In this document: piece after piece, positions 3,001 to 48,649 of the stretch | Numbering within the stretch: position 1 is the first letter of the stretch | How the letters are laid out: the number at the start of each line of letters is the position of its first letter | Source of the DNA: an uncultured Flavobacteriaceae bacterium | Lineage (GTDB): Bacteria > Bacteroidota > Bacteroidia > Flavobacteriales > Flavobacteriaceae | Assembly: GCA_937929935.1 (NCBI GenBank) | Contig: CALFUL010000013.1 | Span: 62,001-126,000, forward strand | Reading direction: 5' to 3' | Length of the DNA: 64,000 bases | Translations under genes and position numbers: made by a program | The notes under the pieces: model-generated | Seen by the model: the letters and a program-made list of their open reading frames with translations, nothing else | What the model was told of the DNA's origin: nothing | Database searches by the model: none

Positions 3001-6000
3001 TGTAGGACCAACTTGATCGGATAATTCAAAGGCCGTAATATCCTTATCAGAGGATGGTGTGAATGTTACCGTAACGCTTTGCGTGCAAAGTGCCTGGTTA
3101 CCCGCAGAATCAGTGGTAGCCCATTGAACTATTGTTGTACCGACAGGGTACGCAAATGGAATAGAGTTATTCGTTCCTGCCACGGTAGCAGAAAAAAGTA
3201 AAGATTGATCACAATTATCTGTTGCTAAAGGGATTCCTATGTTATTGATAGTGACATCACTACCGTCTGGACTGACCACACTAATATCCTGAGGACAAAC
3301 TATTTCTGGTGCCTCGGTATCATTGACGGTAATATCGAATGTGCATTGATCTGTGTTGCCCGCAGCATCAGTTGCAGTCACGGTTACAACAGTTGTACCT
3401 ACAGGAAAAAGGGAACCACTCAGAATAGAAGATGACGTCACAACACCTGGTTGATCATCAGTTGCACTAGCCATAAAATCAACAATAGCTCCACACTCAC
3501 CTGCAGCATTGCTAACAACAATATTACCAGGACAACTAACTACAGGATCGGTAGTATCTTCTAATACAGTGACATTTACTGTATAGATTTTTGTGCTATT
3601 ATCTTGCGCTGTTACCACATAATCAACCGGAGCACTAAAATCTTGTGCATCAGTCACAGCAGGGCTAATGGTAGCTCCTGCAGAAAAGACTAGACTTGAA
3701 GGTACCAAATTTGAAACATCACTACCTATCGGCATGGTTACCGCAATACTGGTACCACTAATTGCTGTAGGACCAACTTGATTTGGTAATGCAAAGGCCG
3801 TAATATCTTTATCAGCTGAAGGTGTAAAATTAACTGTAATGCTCTGATTACAAAAAGCGGGATTACCAGCTTCATCAACGGTAGACCATTGAATTACAGT
3901 GGTTCCCACAGGAAAGAATGTTGGTATTGGGTCAGTAGATCCTAGAACAACACTTGAAATAGGCAAAACTGCAGAACAATTATCCGTTGCGGTCGCCATC
4001 CCAATATCTTCAATGCTAATCGGGCTTCCATCAAGACTTACAACGCTAATATTTGGAGGGCAAGTAATTTCTGGAGCTTGATCATCATTTACCGTAATTG
4101 TGAAACTACATTGAGCAGAATTGCCAGCGGCATCAACAACTTGATAAGTAACCGTGGTCGTGCCTAATGGAAACATATCTCCGCTAATCGAACCTGATAT
4201 CGATGTGGTTACAGCACCAGGATTGTTATCTGTACCCACTGGTTCAGCATAGTTTACAATTGCCCCACACGCATCTTCATCAGTGGAAACAACTATATCA
4301 TCAGGGCATGTGATTTCTGGATCAGTGGTATCTTGTAAATTAACGGTAAATGTGACGACGTCTTTTGCTTCGCTATTCTCAAATTCAGTATGACCACTTT
4401 CTGCCGCTATAATGACCAGAGTATTTTGACCTTCAATTATTCCTTCAGCTGCACCCAGACTCCATGATAATTGCCCTGCAGCACTAGCTGTTGAAATTCG
4501 ATCATTTTGATCAAGATTATTTATGTCAGTTGGGTTTACCCAAATATGAAAGTGCTCATTGTCTGGCGCTTGGAAAAACATGTTGGTTGCTGTCCATCCC
4601 GCTAATATTTCAGTATCAGTGAGTATATCACCTTCGCTAGGAAATGCAAAAGCGACATCTGGCCCCTCTATCGTAATTTCAATATCATCAGTTACTTCGT
4701 TACCATCTGTGTCTGTAACCGTTGCATTAACCAAATAATTTCCTGGTACAAATAGCCGATCAGTGAATGAACCACCTGCACCACCAAAACTTGGTTCGAA
4801 CGGATCAATACTCCAGCTAATGGCATTTGTTAAAGTAGTATCATCATCCTCGGCATCAGTTGCCGTGGCAGAGAAATTAATTTGTGTGCCTCTTGGTATC
4901 GAAACTGGATTACCATTTATAGTTGGCGTATTTATTACAATAGTTGGTGGTGTATCTGTCGGAAGATCAGAAACGTAACAAATATCAAATCCCTTAACCG
5001 AAGGATTCTGTGTTCCCTTTAAAAAATTAATAGTTAAGACTCCATCTTCTACCGTTGCTTGAAAAGTTTCAACCTTAGCTACATTTATTTGTGTTCCATC
5101 AACAGAAGGTCGATAATCATCAAGAGCTATTTCTCCTTCAATTTCAACATCAAAAACACGTGGATTATTTAATTCACCAGGCCAGTTTTCATTGAATAGA
5201 ATTTTCACATCAAATACGCCGTTTCCTGTTGGAAACTCCCAATTCATATTATTAGGATTCCCAAGGGTACTGTATCTTTCGGTTTGAAATAGATATTCAG
5301 GGTAACCTGTAGTATTTGATACCAATGGTGTTAAAGAACCAAAGGTTTGATCATTAGCTGGTGCTGTTAAATTTAAGTAGGAAGATGGCGTACCCGGATT
5401 TGCAGTAGCGCCAGCATTATTTGCTGCAGCTGCTTGATCTTCTTCAAAAGCGCCTGAATTTGCAACTAATGCCGGACCCCCAGCATTGACACGAAAACGA
5501 GCGTCACATGAAGGATCACTTTCAGTAACTGTCACTGCTACAACTGCAGTTGCCGTTACCGGATTTGTAGGATGATTATCGGTTATTTCTGCTGTAATGG
5601 TATGGTTACCTATACTTGTCAAAACCGTTGAAATAGAAGCACCAGTACCTAAAGAACCATCAAGATCTGAACTCCAATTAATGTCGGTAGACAAATCCCC
5701 TTCTTCAGGATCAATTGCTGTTGCTGCTAAATCTAAACTTACTCCTGAGGCTAAAGCAAGGCCATTAGCAGGATCAGAAATTGTAACTACCGGACTTGCA
5801 TTCGAATTCAATAGTTCAAATTCAAATTGTTGAATATTCATACCACCAGCAAAATCGAAGCGTAATTTTTGAACCCCAGCATTGGTAAATTCAACAGTAG
5901 CTTCATATTTAATGTAAGGATTCCAGCCCGTATTCGTTACTGAAAAAGTCGCTATTGGTGAGAAACCGCCATTATCTTCTGAAACAGTAAGGGTGGTAGG

Positions 6001-16365: not shown

Positions 16366-16392
16366 CAAAGACATCAATTGCGCTTAAAATAA

Positions 16393-16774
16393 AAAAGCAG
16401 GCCATAAGCCGGATTCTGTTTAACCTGAATAAATTCAGACCCTATCATTTATCTAGACCTTCAGTTACCCAAAGGTTCGAACCGCCTACCCTTTGGCTCG
16501 AGCGTGCAGCTCTCAAACACCAATATACGTGACGTTTCACCACATAGAGTTTACCTGGTTTCACTACAGCATTACCTGTACATTCTTTCTGTTGCACTAG
16601 TCCGTCCGTGTGCCAAATGACGCACGGAGACGGGCGTTACCCGCTATGTTGCACTATGGTGTCCGGACTTTCCTCTTCATCTCGAACTTGATTCGAGACC
16701 TCTCATACTCTACTAGAAAATATAAAAGGCACTGAAACTAGTTCAGCATGCAGCGATAGAGTGACCTGCTGCGC
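16393..16774 (-). ncRNA. rnpB: RNase P RNA, bacterial class A
   Basis: On the minus strand the conserved core GAGGAAAGTCCGGACACC, GGGTAACGCCCG, AGTGCAACAGAAAG, TAAACTC and the 3' signature ACAGAATCCGGCTTATGGCC are all present. The 5' AGCAGG pairs with 3' CCTGCT to close helix P1, which sets the ends at about 16774 and 16393. A run of Ts follows on the minus strand and may end transcription. It is the catalytic RNA that matures tRNA 5' ends. No ORF overlaps it. Confidence 0.95.
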
Positions 16775-44897: not shown

Positions 44898-44945
44898 TCA
44901 ACCCATAAGTGCAACAACTTTATTATTTAGGACTTCAATTGGGTT
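44898..44945 (-). pseudogene. C-terminal scrap of an IS30-like transposase
   Basis: In the frame ending at TGA 44898 the sequence encodes NPIEVLNNKVVALMG, resembling the tail of IS30-family transposases in this group. It joins directly to the IS110 fragment. It is only 15 codons, so the call rests on a short match from memory. Confidence 0.45.
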
Positions 44946-45202
44946 ATCACAACTAAACTTCGCCAACCACAACCTTCAAAACAGTGGTGCGCGTAATAAC
45001 CACAGCAACCAAATTCATAGGCCGTGATAACTTCATATTCCTGAAAATATTTTGAAACATAAGCTTGTAATTGATTTGGGTCGGACGACATACTAAAAGA
45101 CTTACCTGAAAATAAATCTGTTGCACAATGTACTTTCCAACTTCGTTTGTGAATATCGCTACCAATGTATAACTTCGGGTAAGCAGTTTGTTGAGTGTTC
45201 AT
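44927..45202 (-). pseudogene. Truncated IS110-family transposase (N-terminal fragment)
   Basis: A 91-residue ORF, YIGSDIHKRSWKVH at the start and TAYEFGCCGYYAHHCFEGCGW, matches the DEDD RuvC-like N-terminus of IS110 transposases. It stops after about 83 real residues, where full proteins have over 300, and runs into foreign sequence (the IS30-like scrap in another frame). Only the first D and the E of the DEDD set remain, so it is dead. It marks the right edge of the accessory block. Confidence 0.8.
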
Positions 45203-45253
45203 ATCTTAATTGTTTTAGAGAACTTTAAAGATACTTGACTTGCTGCTTTTCAT

Positions 45254-45420
45254 CAATGCTATAAAGAATACGGGCTTCGGGCTTAATCGAAAGGTTTGTG
45301 TATTTTTATGAAGTCCGCAAAATCTTTGGCCCCGAAGCGTCGGGGTTGCTTTAAACAAGGAAAAGAAAAAACAAAAAGATTTTGCTATGTGTGTGGCGGA
45401 AAATAATCGCTAGTTTGCTC
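45254..45420 (+). repeat. Non-coding foldable repeat, copy 1
   Basis: It shares with copy 2 (47762-47965) CAATGCTATAA at the left end, TTTATGAAGTC, the AAACAAAAAGATTT run and GCTATGTG/GTGGCG, in the same order and strand. Between TATGAAGTCC and AACAAGG lies a hairpin CCCCGA-AGCG-TCGGGG (45330-45345) whose sequence differs from copy 2 although its place is the same. No gene lies in it. Confidence 0.7.
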
Positions 45421-45471
45421 CCTTACTTTTCATAGCTCGAGCATTGTAAGTAATTATCGTCAAGACAAAAA

Positions 45472-46047
45472 TTGGAAGACTTAATCAATAAAATAAAAAG
45501 TAGTACAACTCTTAGCTCAAAAGCCGAAGAATATGTTGTTTCTATTGCAAAAGAAAAGTCGGTTTCTAAAGGCGATGTTTTGATTTATCAAGGACAAGCT
45601 GTGAAGAACACATATTTTGTTAAAGACGGCTGCTTAAGAGCATATTGTATTGATAAAAATGGGAAAGAACATACATTACAGTTTGCTATCAAAAATTGGT
45701 GGATTAGTGATTTTATTGCCATCTACAATAATGAACTATCTACATTAACAATAGAGTGTATAGCTGATTCAAATATAATCGAATTTAATGCTAAACTACT
45801 GGATGAGATATATTCAAAATTTCCTGAATTTGAAGCGTTTCAAAGGAAAAACTTAGAGCGCCATGTAGTTAGTTTACATAAAAGAATTTTAAATCAATTG
45901 CAACTAACCGCTCTAGAGCGATATGAATTATTTCTGAATCAATATCCCGATATTGAGCAATACACGCCAAATTACCACATCGCATCTTATTTAGGCATTA
46001 CACAACAAAGCTTGAGTCGCATAAGAGTAGAAAAATCAAAAAAATAG
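45472..46047 (+). CDS. Crp/Fnr-family transcription regulator
   Basis: A 191-residue protein with a TTG start. The cyclic-nucleotide-binding-like beta roll spans about 20-130 (SVSKGDVLIYQGQAVKNTYFVKDG, split), and the C-terminal helix-turn-helix is IASYLGITQQSLSRIR. It ends right after the HTH, as short Bacteroidota members do. It lies 72 bp upstream of, and in the same direction as, the DJ-1/PfpI gene, which has its own promoter, so it may regulate it. Confidence 0.88.
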   Translation: MEDLINKIKSSTTLSSKAEEYVVSIAKEKSVSKGDVLIYQGQAVKNTYFVKDGCLRAYCIDKNGKEHTLQFAIKNWWISDFIAIYNNELSTLTIECIADSNIIEFNAKLLDEIYSKFPEFEAFQRKNLERHVVSLHKRILNQLQLTALERYELFLNQYPDIEQYTPNYHIASYLGITQQSLSRIRVEKSKK

Positions 46048-46068
46048 CTTTCTTACCATAAGGTAATT

Positions 46069-46096
46069 TTTGCCTCAAAACCATCCTATACTTTTG
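46069..46096 (+). promoter_or_regulatory. Promoter of the DJ-1/PfpI gene
   Basis: TTTG at 46069-46072, 16-base spacer, TACTTTTG at 46089-46096, then the ATG at 46120. It fits the -33/-7 pattern of this phylum. Confidence 0.5.
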
Positions 46097-46119
46097 TTTT
46101 AAACTAAAAAAACAAAGTC

Positions 46120-47022
46120 ATGGTAAAAAAAATAGTAATAGGATTAGGAAGTGTTATTATACTTGCTTTTGTAACGTTATACTTCACTAGTAGACCAAAT
46201 TTAGAAGATGATGGTTCATATAGCCCTTCAAGTTTAGCACTTACTTTAGGTACTGTTTCAAAAACAGATTTTGAAGACATAAAGTACTCAAAATACCAAG
46301 GAGATAAATCGAAGATTTTAGTGATTTTCACTGAACAAAAAAACTTGAAGATGAAGAATGGCAAATCCTTCTCTACAGGAAATCATCCAATAGAAGCACT
46401 TGTACCAATGTTACACCTTAAAAATGCAGGATTTGATTTTGAAATAGCTACTCCTACTGGCAAACCTGTTGTATTTGAAATGTGGGCTTTTCCTGAAGAA
46501 GACGAGCATGTTAAAGCGATTTACAACAAGTACAAATCGAGTTTTGAGCAGCCTAGAAAGTTAGCTGAATTTATTACTAAAGCATTTGCGAATGATAGTT
46601 CTTATGCTGCTGTATTTGTACCAGGCGGACATGGAGCAATGATTGGTCTTCCAGAAGATAGAAACGTTGGAAAAGTATTAAATTGGGCGCATCAAAATGA
46701 TTTATTCACAATTACTCTTTGTCATGGACCAGGCGCTTTATTATCTACTACACTCGATAATCAAAAATTTCTTTACGATGGATACAAGATGGCTGTATTT
46801 CCTGATGCTATTGATGAAATGACCCCAATGATTGGCTATTTACCAGGACATATGACATTAGGTGTTAGCGAAAGGTTGAAAAACTTAGGCGCTACTATTG
46901 TTAACACAGAATCTGATAATACGGTTTGTATAGATAGAAAATTAATTACCGGAGCAAGTCCATTAGCTTCTAATGAATTAGGTAAGCTGGCAGCAAACAC
47001 TTTACTAAAGGAGTTGAATTAA
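46120..47022 (+). CDS. Membrane-anchored DJ-1/PfpI-family protein (HchA-like)
   Basis: A 300-residue protein. An N-terminal membrane helix (VIGLGSVIILAFVTLYFTS) precedes a class I glutamine amidotransferase-like domain of the Hsp31/HchA type. The nucleophile elbow is LCHGPGALL with Cys 201, VPGGHGAMIGLPED holds another active-site segment, and a Glu is in the FPEEDEH region. Family members act as glyoxalase III or protein deglycase and chaperones. The anchor would put the domain in the periplasm, which is unusual for HchA. Confidence 0.85.
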   Translation: MVKKIVIGLGSVIILAFVTLYFTSRPNLEDDGSYSPSSLALTLGTVSKTDFEDIKYSKYQGDKSKILVIFTEQKNLKMKNGKSFSTGNHPIEALVPMLHLKNAGFDFEIATPTGKPVVFEMWAFPEEDEHVKAIYNKYKSSFEQPRKLAEFITKAFANDSSYAAVFVPGGHGAMIGLPEDRNVGKVLNWAHQNDLFTITLCHGPGALLSTTLDNQKFLYDGYKMAVFPDAIDEMTPMIGYLPGHMTLGVSERLKNLGATIVNTESDNTVCIDRKLITGASPLASNELGKLAANTLLKELN

Positions 47023-47052
47023 AAACTACCTAAAACAAGGTATAAAAGCAAT

Positions 47053-47080
47053 AGCGGTTTGAGTGCATACTCAAACCGCT
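47053..47080 (+). terminator. Terminator after the DJ-1/PfpI gene
   Basis: Perfect 12-bp stem AGCGGTTTGAGT / ACTCAAACCGCT with a 4-base loop, about 30 bases after the stop. The T-tail is short. Confidence 0.7.
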
Positions 47081-47140
47081 TTATGTATTTAATTAAGTAT
47101 AAGTAAGTGCATTTAATCCACTACTGCTCTTATGCTAGCC

Positions 47141-47152
47141 GTTGGCAACAAT
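47141..47152 (+). repeat. GTTGGCAACAAT box, left of the ParDE pair
   Basis: GTTGGCAACAAT recurs as GTTGCCAACAAT at 47754-47765 with one change. The two boxes bracket the toxin-antitoxin genes as direct repeats, like cassette ends. Confidence 0.6.
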
Positions 47153-47170
47153 ATTAAAAAATTTGTAATT

Positions 47171-47191
47171 GGTGTAAATTTGGTGTAAATT
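47171..47191 (+). promoter_or_regulatory. parD promoter/operator with direct repeat GGTGTAAATT
   Basis: GGTGTAAATT occurs twice 11 bases apart (47171, 47182), and TAAATTTG (47175-47182) matches a -7 box. A repeat over the promoter, 24 bases before parD, fits autoregulation by the ParD-ParE complex. Confidence 0.5.
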
Positions 47192-47214
47192 AGAACCAAT
47201 CTAAATATACACTC

Positions 47215-47454
47215 ATGGCAAGACAGAGCATTTCATTTACACAACCAAATGACGAATGGTTAAAATCACAAGTTGATACCCAAGAATATTCAAGTAAAAG
47301 TGAACTTGTTAACGACTTAATCAGACAAGCAAGAAACCAGCAAATCGAAATTGACTGGATTAAAGCTAAATTAGATAAAGCTGAGCATAATGGATTCTCT
47401 AATGATAGCAAGAAACAGATTTTAGCTCAGGCAAAGTCTATAGTTAATGACTGA
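47215..47454 (+). CDS. parD: ParD-family antitoxin
   Basis: A 79-residue protein. The N-terminal ribbon-helix-helix (SISFTQPNDEWLKSQV, then SKSELVNDLIRQAR) is followed by an acidic tail that would wrap the toxin. It overlaps parE by 8 bases. It should bind and block ParE and repress its own promoter. Confidence 0.92.
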   Translation: MARQSISFTQPNDEWLKSQVDTQEYSSKSELVNDLIRQARNQQIEIDWIKAKLDKAEHNGFSNDSKKQILAQAKSIVND

Positions 47455-47734
47455 TTATAAACTAAGTAATGTCTCAAAAAATGACTTGATACGGATTCAT
47501 CGATACGGAGTAAAAAAGTTTGGAATGGTCCAAGCTGACAAATACTTTGATTCTTTTTTTGAGTACTTCAACATCATTGCTCAAAGCCCCTATTCATTCG
47601 AATCAGTTGATTTTATAAAAAAAGGATATAAGCGGTGCATTTGTGGTACCGATAGTATTTATTATAAAATTAATGGAAACATCATTGAAATAATGGCAAT
47701 TGTGGGAAGACAGGATTTAAAAAATATACTTTAA
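47447..47734 (+). CDS. parE: ParE/RelE-superfamily toxin
   Basis: A 95-residue protein with the ParE fold: VSKNDLIRIHRYGVKKFG, the strand YKRCICGTDSIYYKI and the end IIEIMAIVGRQD. ParE toxins inhibit DNA gyrase. It is paired with parD and flanked by GTTGSCAACAAT boxes, and a structured repeat follows its stop. Confidence 0.92.
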   Translation: MTDYKLSNVSKNDLIRIHRYGVKKFGMVQADKYFDSFFEYFNIIAQSPYSFESVDFIKKGYKRCICGTDSIYYKINGNIIEIMAIVGRQDLKNIL

Positions 47735-47753
47735 ACTCTTTCGGGGAAATACT

Positions 47754-47965
47754 GTTGCCAACAATGCTATAATTAATGTGGGGTTTAGGTTTTTACGCCA
47801 AGGTCTGCGTATATTTATGAAGTCGCTAAATTGAAAATTACGCGTCAGCGAAATGTTCAATTTTAGGCTTTGAACAAGAAAAAAAAAGCAAAACAAAAAG
47901 ATTTCGCTATGTGCGTGGCGCAACGGGAATAGTAAATTACCGCCCCACACTAATCATAACCAAGG
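47754..47965 (+). repeat. Non-coding foldable repeat, copy 2
   Basis: Starts with GTTGCCAACAATGCTATAA. The ends pair: ATTAATGTGGGG (47772-47783) with CCCCACACTAAT (47943-47954), one mismatch. Inside, TTTAC pairs GTAAA, GCGTAT pairs ATGTGC and GAAGTC pairs GATTTC with G-T pairs, around a central hairpin TAAATTGAA / TTCAATTTTA. The pairs are nested, giving one long arm. The minus-strand ORF 47717-47950 over it is chance. Confidence 0.7.
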
Positions 47966-47989
47966 CGTATTTTAAGACATGACATTTCA

Positions 47990-48649
47990 ATGAACTCAAA
48001 AGAATATTACAAAATACTTCATACACCCTTACAAGAAAAGGACGATACCTCATTAATATATGGAGGAGGAATTTTTTTAGTTTTATTCGTAGTCATCAAT
48101 TTTATTCCAATTGAACTCGCATTGAGAATGCCAGTTTTACTGGTAATTGTATTTATTTCAGTTTTTTGGGCAATACACAGAGCTGAAATTCTTAATAGAA
48201 ACAAAATCATTTGGGGAATATGCGCTTTTATTTTTCCTCCAATAACTTTAATTATTCTGGGTCTAATGGGTACCAAAATTGGTATAAAACCTATTAAGAA
48301 ATTAGTATATGAACACCGAAAAAAATATGAAGAAAAAATACTAAATAACAAACTACCAGAAAAAGATGCCGTTGCATTGAATTCAAAAATTTATACTGAG
48401 CTATCAGCGCAATTAAAGAAAGACATTTCAAGTAAATTTAACGAGTTGAACATCGAACCTGATAGCGAACCAAACCAACCTTCATCACCTAGTCGGTTTA
48501 CCATTTGGATTGGTGGTCTCACTACCTCTTTATCTGCCACAAAAAGTAATAACAATACTATAATCAAAGCTAGAAACGGATACATTTTTAATTTTATTAT
48601 TTTAATACTAATTATAGCTGTTTTGATTTATGTAATCATTAAATCATAG
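47990..48649 (+). CDS. Membrane protein, unknown
   Basis: A 219-residue protein with membrane helices at about 24-41, 46-63, 72-92 and a last one at 196-216. The middle is charged and helical with a Pro/Ser-rich linker (EPNQPSSPSR). Not recognised. It follows the structured repeat directly and stands alone, so it may be a cassette gene. Confidence 0.6.
   Translation: MNSKEYYKILHTPLQEKDDTSLIYGGGIFLVLFVVINFIPIELALRMPVLLVIVFISVFWAIHRAEILNRNKIIWGICAFIFPPITLIILGLMGTKIGIKPIKKLVYEHRKKYEEKILNNKLPEKDAVALNSKIYTELSAQLKKDISSKFNELNIEPDSEPNQPSSPSRFTIWIGGLTTSLSATKSNNNTIIKARNGYIFNFIILILIIAVLIYVIIKS

Follow-up and report, generated by a model that had tools for sequence, protein, structure and literature searches.

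Two copies of a noncoding element lie at 45254–45420 and 47762–47965 of the window, a 64,000-nt stretch of DNA from an uncultured Flavobacteriaceae bacterium. An earlier note had singled them out for their common end and core words and for inner hairpins that keep their structure while changing their sequence, and had left two identities side by side, integron attC sites or a structured RNA. Here we ask what these elements are. Our best reading is a distinct integron lineage of Bacteroidia: judging from the sequence, the elements are very probably recombination sites of the attC type that belong to an integron-like cassette system, which Flavobacteriaceae share with other Bacteroidia. Its arrays start beside a tyrosine recombinase taken as the integrase, and the window would hold a decayed, CALIN-like part of them.

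Sites and genes in the window

Used as a query against the window's own genome (3.1 Mb in 40 contigs, 85% complete), the first copy finds at least 13 further places (best E 3e-48), which form same-orientation clusters with a spacing of 0.5–2.5 kb. Contig C8 of this genome carries a run of eight plus-strand sites, with a small gene before each. From an alignment of 13 sites (A1), we built a covariance model, R1, of 198 positions. Both copies are present as claimed, with R1 bounds of 45244–45448 (+; site 1, 148.5 bits, outside the training set of R1) and 47753–47972 (+; site 2, 153.9 bits, in the training set). Between them lies a third attC-like site at 47027–47146 (+), with 41.4 bits and an E value of 5.5e-10 in an R1 search over 10 kb with filters off; the earlier note overlooked this site, as it did the decay of the window's array and the different kind of integrase.

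The end architecture of the sites reads N7-AAC, 3 nt, an L'' arm (GGCTAT A NNNN A NNNN...), a terminal part, an L' arm, 5 nt and GTT. As in attC sites, this forms an imperfect hairpin, R''-spacer-L''...L'-spacer-R', with a variable terminal part; the spacers are most often 3 and 5 nt long and the L stem comprises ~17 nt. R1 applied to 47 loci (574 kb) gave 234 matches, of which 212 were used after exclusion of opposite-strand shadows and matches cut by contig ends. Site sizes fall into two main classes of ~198 and ~133 nt with a few of 50–80 nt, the overall range being ~50–210 nt. The strict attC boxes are rare, GTTRRRY occurring in 11 of 204 sites and RYYYAAC in 13 of 199; GTTR is present in 200 of 204.

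In the window, a Crp/Fnr-type regulator gene (45472–46047, +; Pfam PF00027, E 1.5e-11) and a DJ-1/PfpI-family gene (46120–47022, +; PF01965) follow site 1, and the third site, which ends in CCGTTGGCA, separates the PfpI gene from a ParD/ParE-type toxin-antitoxin pair (ORFs at 47215–47734, +). ParE matches PF05016 (E 2.2e-7); ParD, without a match in the Pfam search of the window genes, is a putative identity given by position. The pair is the gene content of one cassette with the expected signature: the cassette start GTTGGCAACA at 47141–47150 (+), part of R', is the perfect reverse complement of, and pairs with, the R'' box TGTTGCCAAC of site 2 at 47753–47762 (+), and site 2 is the attC of this ParDE cassette. 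Downstream of site 2 lies a small membrane-protein gene (47990–48649, +), an ORF with no family match.

Both outer sites are worn. Site 2 has an R' side without GTT. In site 1, R' is degenerate, with GAGCATTG where AACCGTTG is expected, and the R'' side is supplanted by a truncated transposase at 44927–45202 (−), which we take, by sequence recognition, to be IS110-type and whose upstream end abuts the site at the L'' arm. A second such remnant, with the same junction and orientation, lies at G000:C13:18.5–18.8 kb (L034, around 4500–4860); just these two copies were found in the genome, both degraded and both abutting sites at the same point. The window stretch is best described as a decayed, integrase-less (CALIN-like) cluster with one recognisable cassette, ParDE.

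Cassette signature, gene content and spread

A cassette excised as a circle would carry a site made of its R'' and of an R' whose remainder comes from the opening bases of that cassette. Within an array, the sequence just past the GTT of one site should then pair with the R'' of the site that follows. Among 160 neighbouring pairs, the fit of the seven variable bases after GTT to the next R'' is perfect in 94 and broken by a single mismatch in another 42, giving 136/160 with at most one mismatch versus ~3% at random (random pairing of the same boxes yields 0.7% perfect fits and 2.5% with one mismatch). With neighbours reversed, there are no perfect fits (0/155), and R'' and R' within the same site fit perfectly in 1 of 193. 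We know of no repeat type besides the integron cassette that predicts such neighbour pairing.

The proposal that the copies stand at the joints of small gene units holds in the arrays, which have one gene unit between sites. Among 156 bodies between sites, the longest ORF runs with the site direction in 127 and against it in 16, and 13 bodies have no ORF above 150 nt; that is, 127 of the 143 ORF-bearing bodies are in site orientation. The median body is 730 bp long, and the median distances are 28 nt from the start of the cassette to that of the ORF and 17 nt from the ORF's stop to the end of R''.

Whole units also recur between genomes. One cassette with its site (963 bp, 86%) is common to genera G002 and G089 and is cut at both sites, and a second (549 bp, 87%), also cut at sites, is common to G046 and G070. 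Genes between copies differ among relatives, the point that the earlier note had proposed to test: in some congeners ParDE and site 2 recur unaccompanied by the Crp and PfpI genes, the ParDE-homologous unit of congener G002 lies between two sites, and the Crp and PfpI genes recur together without the ParDE cassette in two other congeners (G012:C11, G009:C4).

The earlier note had called for a search of other genomes with a covariance model, and its mention of similar words in other flavobacteria was borne out. R1 detects sites in more than half of the related genomes (84 of 150), with all 15 members of the genus among the carriers, and in 54 of the 295 genomes taken from the class at large. 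The survey scored no more than 8–16 places per genome, with a model fitted to a single terminal structure. Named carriers include Winogradskyella ursingii, Algibacter onchidii, Seonamhaeicola aphaedonensis, Flavobacterium aciduliphilum and a Rufibacter sp. Searches of plasmid and phage collections by BLAST gave no real match.

An adjoining recombinase outside the IntI clade

In the window's own genome, a gene for a 375-residue tyrosine recombinase on contig C18 runs into an array of two cassettes, and the sequence 47 nt past its stop codon, GTTAGCAATA, is the exact partner of the first site's R''. In 13 loci from related genomes, a GTT plus seven bases that fits the first site's R'' at 9–10 of 10 positions stands 27–111 nt downstream of the recombinase stop codon. 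In the main recombinase clade, all 19 loci with downstream sequence have same-strand sites downstream, and five other loci stop in or near the array. Just before the attI-like GTT, most main-clade loci have a palindrome with arms of 9–14 bp, whose symmetry is kept while its sequence varies. Contigs often end at the array start; the end of L118 (G011:C13:200526) coincides to the base with the attI GTT, as it should if the cassette behind that point varies from cell to cell or from copy to copy. Features of integrons found here are thus tandem same-orientation cassettes, the circle signature, an attI-like start by a recombinase, and movement of units between genomes.

A scan independent of R1, using the stem and cassette signature alone, finds linked sites downstream of the recombinase in the named carriers and in Aquiflexum, Algoriphagus, Zunongwangia and a Sphingobacteriales MAG, and no linked sites in shuffled sequence. 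In the vicinity of recombinase relatives from outside Bacteroidia (Oceanirhabdus, Sphingomonas, Variovorax, Mesorhizobium and a spirochaete), there are no linked sites or arrays. The nearest recombinase among named records, at 73%, is from a Maribacter MAG, which makes Maribacter or a genus close to it the probable source of the window. At three loci (L112, L115 and L135), a second, more distant recombinase type (31–35% identity) heads arrays of the same site family, without a clear palindrome before GTT.

The recombinase scores 208.5 bits against TIGR02249 (integron integrase IntI), below the cut-off of 265, and its core scores 226 bits against NF040815, above the cut-off of 220. Compared with the Vibrio cholerae integrase VchIntIA (2A3V), it has 25 residues where that protein has 67, and all 27 array-type recombinases have 64–65 residues where full-length canonical IntI of the same phylum has 106. 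The segment absent from them, LPxALxxKYPNA...W.WQ.VFP, is the IntI-specific insert near patch III. In a maximum-likelihood tree, the IntI clade (100/100) excludes the array-type recombinases, which fall in a separate clade with other Bacteroidia recombinases.

At its N terminus, the recombinase has ~100 extra residues (1 to about 105; model pLDDT 84.5), for which the predicted structure gives the order beta-beta-alpha-beta-beta-alpha-beta. This domain has no Pfam family, no sequence match in PDB and no significant fold match in PDB; the HARP domain of SMARCAL1 (4o66) stands at rank 7 of the fold search with E 0.46, and a likeness of the predicted fold to HARP is only an idea.

The sites might instead belong to ordinary integron cassettes moved by canonical IntI from other bacteria, with the adjoining recombinase a bystander. 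CALINs without an integrase are common, and in Polaribacter phage P12002L a CALIN has been reported, one site of which was recombined by IntI1 (PMC9892861). Our analysis also places a short site of flavobacterial-type end architecture, AACAATGGCTAAA...TTAGCCGTAGCCGTTAGC, between methyltransferase genes of this phage (L277:30002–30058); this may or may not be the site reported with IntI1 (PMC9892861). Against an origin by canonical IntI, no IntI scores above the cut-off in the 150 relatives (0/150), whereas the same search, as a positive control, recovers canonical IntI from 105 of 396 genomes of the phylum, almost all of which belong to other classes. In addition, the arrays start right after the recombinase, the first cassette fits that very point, and the site family is specific to and abundant in this clade. 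We consider this reading very improbable.

Under the integron-like reading, each cassette would be one small gene unit with its site, would circulate as a circle with matching R'' and R' boxes, and would enter the array through recombination at GTT. The array would begin at the attI-like point just downstream of, and co-directional with, the tyrosine recombinase as the presumed integrase, which probably acts on the cassette sites and in which the N-terminal domain may have a role in recombination. The absence of the insert, which is described as essential for integron integrases (PMC8138268), counts against taking the recombinase for the integrase.

Stem pairing and strand asymmetry

The inner hairpins (GCAAAATC/GATTTTGC, GCTAAATC/GATTTAGC or longer variants) do keep their pairing while the sequence changes. 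Across 150 aligned sites, 93% of cells are paired versus 76% in shuffles, 24 of 28 pairs vary at both partners, and covariation scores 0.363 versus 0.107 in shuffles (slid controls are ~30% paired and score 0.02–0.05), in an alignment that was fitted to R1's structure and so favours that structure. The same stem emerges from an ungapped comparison of 193 arm pairs, in which the model served for locating sites only. This comparison fits without bulges, and no extrahelical bases are seen on the R''-L'' arm.

Two stem positions are A-C, in 116 and 113 of the 193 sites, and hence G-T on the opposite strand; these two conserved mismatches make the bottom strand the better folder. When only the arms are folded, the bottom strand has the greater stability in 190 of 193 sites, with a mean advantage of 3.2 kcal/mol (Wilcoxon p = 4e-33, a value that is indicative only because the sites are not independent). 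The bias is clear only after the arms are folded without the terminal part; folding of whole sites shows a weak bias, the bottom strand being better in 9 of 15. Recombination would then presumably proceed on a single, folded bottom strand.

A GC-rich palindrome, CCTGCCTGCCGGCAGGCAGG, is inserted at differing places within several sites (C8a, C13c, C23; L036, L034, L038). At L031:5792–5998, L031:7731–7932 and L033:6349–6551, the 5' and 3' stem halves are of differing sequence types and pairing is lost, as might result from decay or from recombination between sites.

A structured RNA, or a transcription or processing element (riboswitch, sRNA or terminator) repeated between genes, shares with an attC-type site the intergenic position and the conserved stem with compensatory changes. 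It fits poorly, because the fixed A-C mismatches make the fold of the sense strand weaker and that of its complement stronger; it also leaves unexplained why the bases after a site pair with the start of the next, and Rfam gave no family for the sites of the window or of two array loci. We therefore regard this as very improbable. Of the two identities first proposed, attC is strongly supported: by the cassette signature, by sites and genes that run the same way, by the recombinase next to the array and the attI-like point there, and by the cassettes that different genera have in common. The structured RNA is also not needed. Elsewhere in the window, Rfam recognises a bacterial RNase P RNA, class A, at 16390–16711 (−; 152 bits).

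A transposable repeat such as a MITE, spread by a transposase and grouped by coincidence, is a barely credible identity for the elements: they are dispersed, have paired ends and include copies close in sequence, but they keep one orientation within arrays, have one gene unit between sites, carry the cassette signature, adjoin one recombinase type, and move as shared units of a gene plus one site.

Discussion

The attC-type reading must bear its own counterpoints, namely that no extrahelical bases are seen, that strict GTTRRRY is so rare, and that the recombinase's relatives outside Bacteroidia lack arrays. Going further, we lean slightly towards a second, separately evolved integron platform: a Bacteroidia tyrosine-recombinase lineage outside IntI that, without the IntI-specific domain, would recombine folded single-stranded sites by another structural solution (the N-terminal domain, possibly HARP-like, and bottom strands marked by G-T), with its own attI, in which a covarying palindrome lies. 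Such a platform would be present in over half of the sampled Flavobacteriaceae and relatives and would escape integron finders that require the IntI domain; IntegronFinder, for example, calls an integrase only with that domain (PMC9668308).

Surveys report that integrons are nearly absent from Bacteroidetes (PMC9024848). We found no description of this system in open-licence papers on integrons in Bacteroidota, Flavobacteriaceae and the named genera, preprints being outside that scope. If the arrays work, they form a large overlooked cassette-exchange system in a group that ranks among the most common bacteria of marine and other environments. The belief in an essential IntI-specific domain then becomes directly testable, with two solutions to the same reaction to compare, and a large pool of uncharacterised cassette genes comes with a new recombinase for DNA engineering.

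Comparison with known systems

Like a CALIN (cluster of attC sites lacking an integrase), the window segment consists of sites and cassettes without a nearby integrase; unlike a CALIN, its site family is tied elsewhere to a non-IntI recombinase. The recombinase core exceeds the family cut-off of XerA/NF040815 ("site-specific tyrosine recombinase/integron integrase"). XerA proteins resolve chromosome dimers at dif; unlike theirs, the array recombinase gene heads a cassette array and its product has the extra N-terminal domain. The two IS110-type remnants abutting sites at the same point recall IS1111/IS110 elements such as ISKpn4 and ISPst6, IS1111 elements being known to target attC ends (PMC11187229), with the difference that here there are two degraded copies only, known from their abutting position.

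A close likeness is also to sedentary chromosomal integrons that have a canonical IntI, or IntI integrons for short (class 1, the Vibrio superintegron and archaeal integrons). Shared with them are small gene units each with a site, the AAC/GTT core, the R''-L''/L'-R' architecture with an unpaired spacer and a variable terminal part, an R'' that fits the start of its own cassette, an attI beside the integrase gene, a favoured bottom strand, and toxin-antitoxin cassettes. Unlike in IntI integrons, the recombinase lies outside the IntI clade, with the ~100-residue N-terminal domain and without the IntI-specific insert; the sites, mostly ~133 or ~198 nt long, have two fixed A-C/G-T positions in place of extrahelical bases and GTTR instead of GTTRRRY; and the attI-like point stands behind the recombinase stop, mostly (in the main clade) after a perfect palindrome of varying sequence.
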